Shown here piece by piece: positions 16,083 to 33,720 of a stretch of 64,000 nucleotides of DNA; the first letter of the stretch is position 1; every line of letters starts with the position of its first letter. The position numbers were made by a program, and so were the translations under genes. This stretch comes from Undaria pinnatifida (taxonomy: Eukaryota > Sar > Phaeophyceae > Laminariales > Alariaceae). Under the pieces are notes generated by a model. That model was not told where the DNA came from. It did no database searches and saw only the letters and a list, made by a program, of their open reading frames with translations. The stretch spans positions 9,775,840 to 9,839,839 of the forward strand of contig JABAKD010000023.1 of assembly GCA_012845835.1 (NCBI GenBank). The letters run 5' to 3'.

Positions 16083-16962
16083 TTAAGGCTTTCCACCCCT
16101 CAAGGAATTTTTGAACGGCATTCCTCGATCGGCGCTGCCGTCGTCGTCAGAGTAGAAGTCGTCGCCGTGATCATTGCCGTAGTCGTCACTGTCACCATTA
16201 TCAGCACCATCATGTGTTTTGTCGTCGCTGTAGTAGTCATCACCGTAGTCGTTCCCATAGTCATCGCTGTCCTCCTGTCTATCGCTCTCGTCACCCTTGG
16301 ACGCATCGGAATACGAGGCAAAGGACGTCGATATTTCGGACTGGACGGACGACCTTGAAAAGGATGATAGAGGGGTGGTATTGGTGATGTCGTCACCGCC
16401 AGAAGCCGAAGACGCCTTAGACGATGTCGGGGGAGTGGCAGACTCTTCCAGTTCGCTGGATGATGATGAATAAGATGCCGACTGAGAGGTCGTGCTGGCA
16501 CCGTCATCTTCAGCGGCAGCACTACCACCCTCTCCACTGAGGCTACTAGTACTGCTGTCGGTAGTGGTGGCCGTTGTCGTAGGTCGAGAGGACGACGAAC
16601 CTCCTTCCACCGACGTACTGGCAGAAACCGACGTTCTGGAGGAGGAAGCAGACCCGTCCCCTGAAGATGACGAACTGTTTCCACTTGTAGCGCCTGGTGA
16701 GCTAGAGGTGGAGTTCGATTGAGCCGTAGAGTTAGACGTACTAGAAGACTCGAAGGAGGTGGAGGAGGAGGAGGAGGAGGAGGAGGAGGAGGAGGAGGAG
16801 GAGGAGGAGGAGGAGGAGGAGGAGGAGGAGGAGGAGGAGGAGGACGAGGTTTCGTTTCGTAGCTGGAAGTTTGTAGCGCTGGATGCCGTGGAGCTTCCGC
16901 GATGGGAAAGGTCGGAACAAGTCTGGTTCCACGTCTCGCTGACGACTCCTGACGCGTGTTCC
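16083..16962 (-). CDS. Exon 7, beta-helix gene: Ser-rich and acidic C-terminal region
   Basis: The acceptor GGTTTCTAG fits phase 2 of exon 6 and gives EHASGVVSETWNQTCSDL, then a poly-Ser run coded by TCC repeats, a long Ser/Thr stretch and paired acidic motifs SDDYGNDYGDDYYSDD and SDDYGNDHGDDFYSDD. It ends GMPFKNSLRGGKP at TAA. The frame stays open for 880 nt. The opposite strand reads poly-Glu across the same GAG run, which I take as a shadow. If exon 6 ends the main gene, this could instead be a separate ORF starting at 17039. Confidence 0.55.

Positions 16963-33720: not shown

Follow-up and report, generated by a model that had tools for sequence, protein, structure and literature searches.

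The stretch of DNA considered here (the window) comprises 64,000 nucleotides of the genome of the kelp Undaria pinnatifida and corresponds to C30:9775840-9839839 of the host assembly (G000; 511,146,479 bases, 68 contigs). On its minus strand, at 33720-16083, lies a seven-exon gene whose six introns all have GT..AG borders, with phases 0, 2, 0, 2, 0 and 2, and whose spliced frame encodes 645 amino acids with no internal stop. A reading made from the sequence alone had proposed such a gene without giving a strand, and its exon number, junctions, matching phases and protein length were all reproduced. We consider it highly probable that this is an apparently intact, ordinary nuclear gene of the kelp and that its product is an alginate lyase of family PL41, one that would be secreted.

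Gene structure and splice junctions

All of the exons are on the minus strand. Exon 1 (33343..33720) carries the start codon, a putative signal peptide (residues 1-36) and the beginning of the domain, up to residue 126; it is matched by relatives and ends at a phase-0 donor, GTGAGA. By inspection of the sequence only, the N-terminus has a basic start, a hydrophobic stretch and the residues AHA preceding VTYKV. Exon 2 (23521..23666) encodes residues 127-174 and part of 175 and has a phase-2 donor, GTGAGC. Exon 3 (21711..21855; phase-0 donor GTGCGT) extends to residue 223 and contains the motif GEGIYIG with E213 and Y216; exon 4 (19937..20124; phase-2 donor GTACGG) spans residues 224-285 and part of 286 and contains NECVDIKEG with E247, D250 and K252. 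Exon 5 (18952..19039; phase-0 donor GTGAGG) reaches residue 315, and exon 6 (17689..17801; phase-2 donor GTGAGC) encodes residues 316-352 and part of 353. Exon 7 (16083..16962) holds the end of the domain, a 292-residue serine-rich and acidic tail and the stop codon (16085-16083). The protein is thereby laid out as a beta-helix (approximately residues 37-353) and a low-complexity tail (residues 354-645). The continuous beta-helix coils described in the sequence-only reading hold for the former segment, but not for the latter.

That reading had also maintained that the agreement of the phases exceeded chance, a claim backed by relatives, by a protein alignment and by paralogues. When 16 relatives and the window protein's own domain were used as tblastn queries against the window, the matches fell on most of the same exon intervals, with the relatives differing in which exons they matched; below an expectation value (E) of 0.01, the only matches outside the exons were to two decayed exon copies. 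Exon 7 was matched below this value by P0001 alone, a protein of Laminaria digitata. P0001 is a database entry with no product name, and its sequence is presumably a prediction too; it starts at exon 2 and so does not cover junction 1; it aligns without gaps over junctions 2-6, including sequence past the border of exons 6 and 7. Junction 1 is spanned by alignments of Ectocarpus P0005 and Pylaiella P0003. Because P0001 shares the sequence that follows the exon 6/7 border, the exon-7 acceptor at 16962 is supported. Nine alternative acceptors for exon 7 were listed; those at 16938, 16893 and 16878 also enter the serine-rich frame, but only 16962 agrees with P0001.

The host genome contains at least 45 exon-level matches to exons 2 and 3, spread over nine contigs and including the two in the window; these are matches to exons and not genes. 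Around each of six paralogues, 20 kb was taken and the splice borders were judged by eye. Borders with GT/AG, the same phase and the matching residue were present for the exon 1 donor in three of three paralogues and for both ends of exons 2, 3, 4 and 5 in all six, and the acceptor and donor of exon 6 were kept in all five in which that exon was found. Exon 1 was not found in three of these stretches, and exon 6 was not found in one. The acceptor of exon 4 lies one codon farther from the first aligned residue in half of the six, with its phase unchanged. Two of the paralogues (C30 0.275 and C30 0.36 Mb) are near-copies, two others (C24 0.22 and C30 9.52) are similar to each other, and C24 0.22 carries a stop in exon 4; the independent support from paralogues therefore amounts to approximately four.

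The same genome has six similar matches at G000:C26:10687950-10955415 (43-45% identity, approximately 270 kb), five on the plus strand and one on the minus. They suggest that beta-helix genes of more distant relationship are clustered there.

Family, fold and active site

A database search with a 391-residue query returned L. digitata P0001 as the top match (83% identity, 68% of the query covered); this protein is likely the orthologue. In the nucleotide comparison of genes, the exons of the Undaria protein P0023 match their likeliest host gene (C19, 5.938-5.947 Mb) at 84-98%, and P0001 matches at 83-87%. The FirrV-1-B30 precursors P0009 (57% identity, E 1.7e-105) and P0021 (47% identity, E 1.2e-84) of Ectocarpus each covered 79% of the query; P0021 differs from the window protein in having a WSC domain. 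An Ectocarpus protein called FirrV-1-B30 is also the best match of SjAly, an endolytic alginate lyase from Saccharina japonica that prefers polymannuronate (polyM) and has a predicted signal peptide (PMC6426991); P0009 and P0021 may be the accessions that the paper cites. The window gene resembles SjAly in its brown-algal source, its beta-helix (predicted in SjAly) and its FirrV-1-B30 relatives, and the SjAly gene likewise has seven exons and GT/AG introns (PMC6426991). The placement in PL41 rests on name, similarity, fold and residues, and is made via the relatives named FirrV-1-B30 and the published description of SjAly. In an account of the family under the name PL41, brown-algal genomes contain an average of 19 such genes, acquisition by gene transfer is proposed, and PL41 is the sole lyase family reported so far from brown algae (PMC11468063). 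The family is a known one.

Models of two relatives, P0001 and P0008, which stand in for the spliced window protein, have a parallel beta-helix; the structural check proposed along with the sequence-only reading had been for a beta-solenoid. In the Protein Data Bank, the only sequence match at E<=5 was 6kfn, the Paenibacillus enzyme PsAly, a bacterial protein with approximately 20% identity to the window protein. We take PsAly to be a member of family PL31. Its catalytic residues are Tyr184 and Lys221, and Glu181, Glu216 and Asp219 form its first cation site; all five are kept in SjAly (PMC6796002). These residues were mapped onto the window protein through the aligned motifs GEGIY and E-x-x-D-x-K, by motif and spacing. 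The counterparts of the catalytic Tyr184 and Lys221 are Y216 (codon 21732..21734, minus strand, as are all codons given here) and K252 (20038..20040), that of Glu181 is E213 (21741..21743), and E247 (20055-20053) and D250 (20046-20044) match Glu216 and Asp219. All five are present in the window protein. Among 120 listed homologues, Y216 is conserved in 116, K252 in 118, E213 in 117, E247 in 118 and D250 in 112; seven of the eight rows that differ at D250 have Glu. The PL41 relatives, the models and these residues support the earlier view of the product as a beta-helix protein of the polysaccharide lyase/epimerase class and a candidate wall enzyme.

Several observations weigh against this assignment. 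In the Pfam search that had been proposed earlier, residues 1-391 matched nothing at E<=1. The sole NCBIfam match was NosD (E 1.4e-11), at 43.6 bits against a cut-off of 300. The Foldseek comparison of the P0001 model with 6kfn was modest, with TM-scores of 0.37/0.52 and a root-mean-square deviation of 5.3, the disordered tail included. Further, His154, Arg156, Asp250, Lys252 and the second cation site of PsAly are described as not conserved in SjAly, the activity of which is independent of cation (PMC6796002). The PsAly mechanism therefore transfers only partly. Finally, the characterised SjAly has 359 residues and no C-terminal extension, whereas the window protein has 645 residues with a 292-residue tail; SjAly thus leaves the tail uncovered.

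Could the product have the fold of a lyase without catalysis, merely binding wall alginate? Residues have been lost within the family: Tyr is absent from 4 of the 120 homologues (Ectocarpus P0009, P0011, P0012 and P0013), and Lys is also absent from P0012 and P0013. This pattern suggests that the subgroup, one member of which is named FirrV-1-B30, comprises non-catalytic members. Unlike P0009, which has lost both E213 and Y216, the window protein retains the whole set, with no broken codon, and we regard a purely binding role as improbable. A shade less probable still is a mannuronan C5-epimerase or epimerase/lyase, in which the beta-helix would bind alginate and mostly invert C5 of mannuronate (M) to guluronate (G). 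In the fold comparison, 6kfn outranks epimerases by approximately 6 Z units; the Protein Data Bank sequence search yielded 6kfn and no epimerase; and SjAly, the relative of known activity, acts as a lyase (PMC6426991).

The name FirrV-1-B30 invites a further alternative, that a phaeovirus gene was captured by the kelp genome. The best viral fold match to the P0001 model is the phaeovirus protein EsV-1-164 (BFVD Q8QKV2; 32% identity, 264 columns, E 7.7e-14), followed by FirrV-1-A15 (E 1.1e-4), and an alignment scan of IMG/VR gave three relatives (3/77) with 28-34% identity. A single-protein scan of viral contigs gave 17 pattern matches, none of them confirmed. We found no paper naming the EsV-1-164 protein in the openly accessible literature, and a review of giant viruses names an alginate epimerase rather than a lyase in EsV-1 (PMC9614988). 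We deem viral capture the least likely of the alternatives, given the six introns with positions conserved in paralogues and a tree, built without viral rows, that splits 29 brown-algal from 20 bacterial rows (support 100/99). The viral copy may be host-derived.

Proposed function and the C-terminal tail

Alginate is a cell-wall polymer of brown algae, which both build and cut it. As a PL41 lyase, the protein would be directed to the cell wall by its signal peptide, and its beta-helix would hold alginate in a long groove. There, E213, E247 and D250 would surround the substrate carboxylate, K252 would abstract the proton from C5 of a mannuronate residue, and the leaving O4 would receive a proton from Y216. 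Such beta-elimination would cleave beta-1,4 bonds, presumably in M-rich blocks, and the enzyme would probably serve to loosen or trim the wall of the alga itself at local sites. A 2025 study assigns 17 of 22 expressed PL41 genes to three modules of co-expression, in a section whose heading concerns modules down-regulated in the sporophyte, and suggests a role for PL41 genes in gamete release (PMC12629598).

The tail (residues 354-645) contains 105 serines among its 292 residues, including a run of 29, followed by two acidic blocks of the DDYGND type and the ending LRGGKP. The LRGG codons (16092..16103, minus strand) specify residues 640-643, six residues from the C-terminus. The window protein and 9 of 30 brown-algal homologues, several of them partial, have an LRGG whose first residue is among the final ten; the remaining 90 homologues all lack it in their final 20 residues. 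L. digitata P0001, a partial record without exon 1, has the same tail plan and LRGG tip as the window protein, but a different tail spacing. C-terminal extensions of 171-281 residues are also described in four Ectocarpus homologues of SjAly (PMC6426991).

Tails were also read from a set of ten host-genome paralogues, as predicted open frames following the W-x-x-x-C stretch at the end of the domain; C24 0.22 was left out, exon 6 not having been found there. Seven of the ten read through to a stop, and C30 9.52 and L024 showed no tail to a stop within the stretch examined. In four tails, Thr-Pro-Ser-Pro repeats lead into Asp-rich stretches, with the endings RGGRTG, RGGRV, RGGRD and RGDRV; the Asp-rich stretch is very long in some kelp paralogues. 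The near-copies L021 and L022 end in LRGTGN, and L023 ends in DDYQ, without a basic tip. A basic Arg-Gly tip is therefore found in seven of the eight tails read when the window gene (16086-16961) is included, the others being L011-L012, L015-L020, L021 and L022, with two near-copy pairs among them. A protein search with a tail only (P0007, residues 461-520) gave five matches at E<=10, namely the query and four PL41 proteins, with only P0005 below 1e-3; within the length and word limits of that search, no unrelated carrier of a P0007-type tail appeared. In the openly accessible literature, none of the titles and abstract openings covered dealt with such a brown-algal PL41 tail, and the one paper found for LRGG concerns virus protease inhibitors.

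Calcium is the ion that sets alginate gels. These facts raise the possibility, which we offer tentatively and hold to be somewhat doubtful, that brown-algal PL41 proteins share a wall-retention module: a Ser or Thr/Pro/Ser stalk, an Asp-rich stretch and a basic R-G-G/R-G-x tip near the C-terminus. In such a module, calcium of the wall would be bound by the Asp-rich stretch and anionic polysaccharide by the Arg tip, so that the lyase would be held in place and adjusted to the calcium around it. For the window protein, our guess is that the disordered tail (Ser-rich, acidic, with a basic Arg-Gly tip) would keep the enzyme in a wall that is anionic and rich in calcium. The gene contributes a cross-checked structure and a contrast, with a long, patterned tail here and in several relatives and none in SjAly. 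If the tail does anchor or regulate the lyase, it bears on the remodelling of the kelp wall.

Introns, relic exons and repeats

Intron 1 is approximately 9.7 kb long, in part because it contains an open frame (25782..28022, minus strand) that encodes a reverse transcriptase domain (Pfam RVT_1, E 2.8e-34). It also contains a decayed partial copy of exon 2 (23991..24068, minus strand) with 68% identity over 78 bases (tblastn E 4e-5, blastn E 0.024), the local score of which, 56.5, is only moderately in excess of the best of 50 shuffles (44.5). A decayed partial copy of exon 4 lies in intron 4 (19645..19731, minus strand; tblastn E 1.6e-4); it has a local score of 55 against 33 for the best of 50 shuffles, and no blastn match at E 0.1. 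Both relics look as though individual exons were once duplicated and afterwards lost.

For a repeat of approximately 250 bases (32471-32720), blastn gives 12 matches within the window, some of them partial and the repeat itself included; they occur in both orientations, five of them in intron 1. Outside the gene, a Copia-type retrotransposon on the plus strand (42202-47814) contains gag, a zinc knuckle, an integrase (under its Pfam cut-off) and RVT_2, in one frame broken by stop codons into four open stretches.
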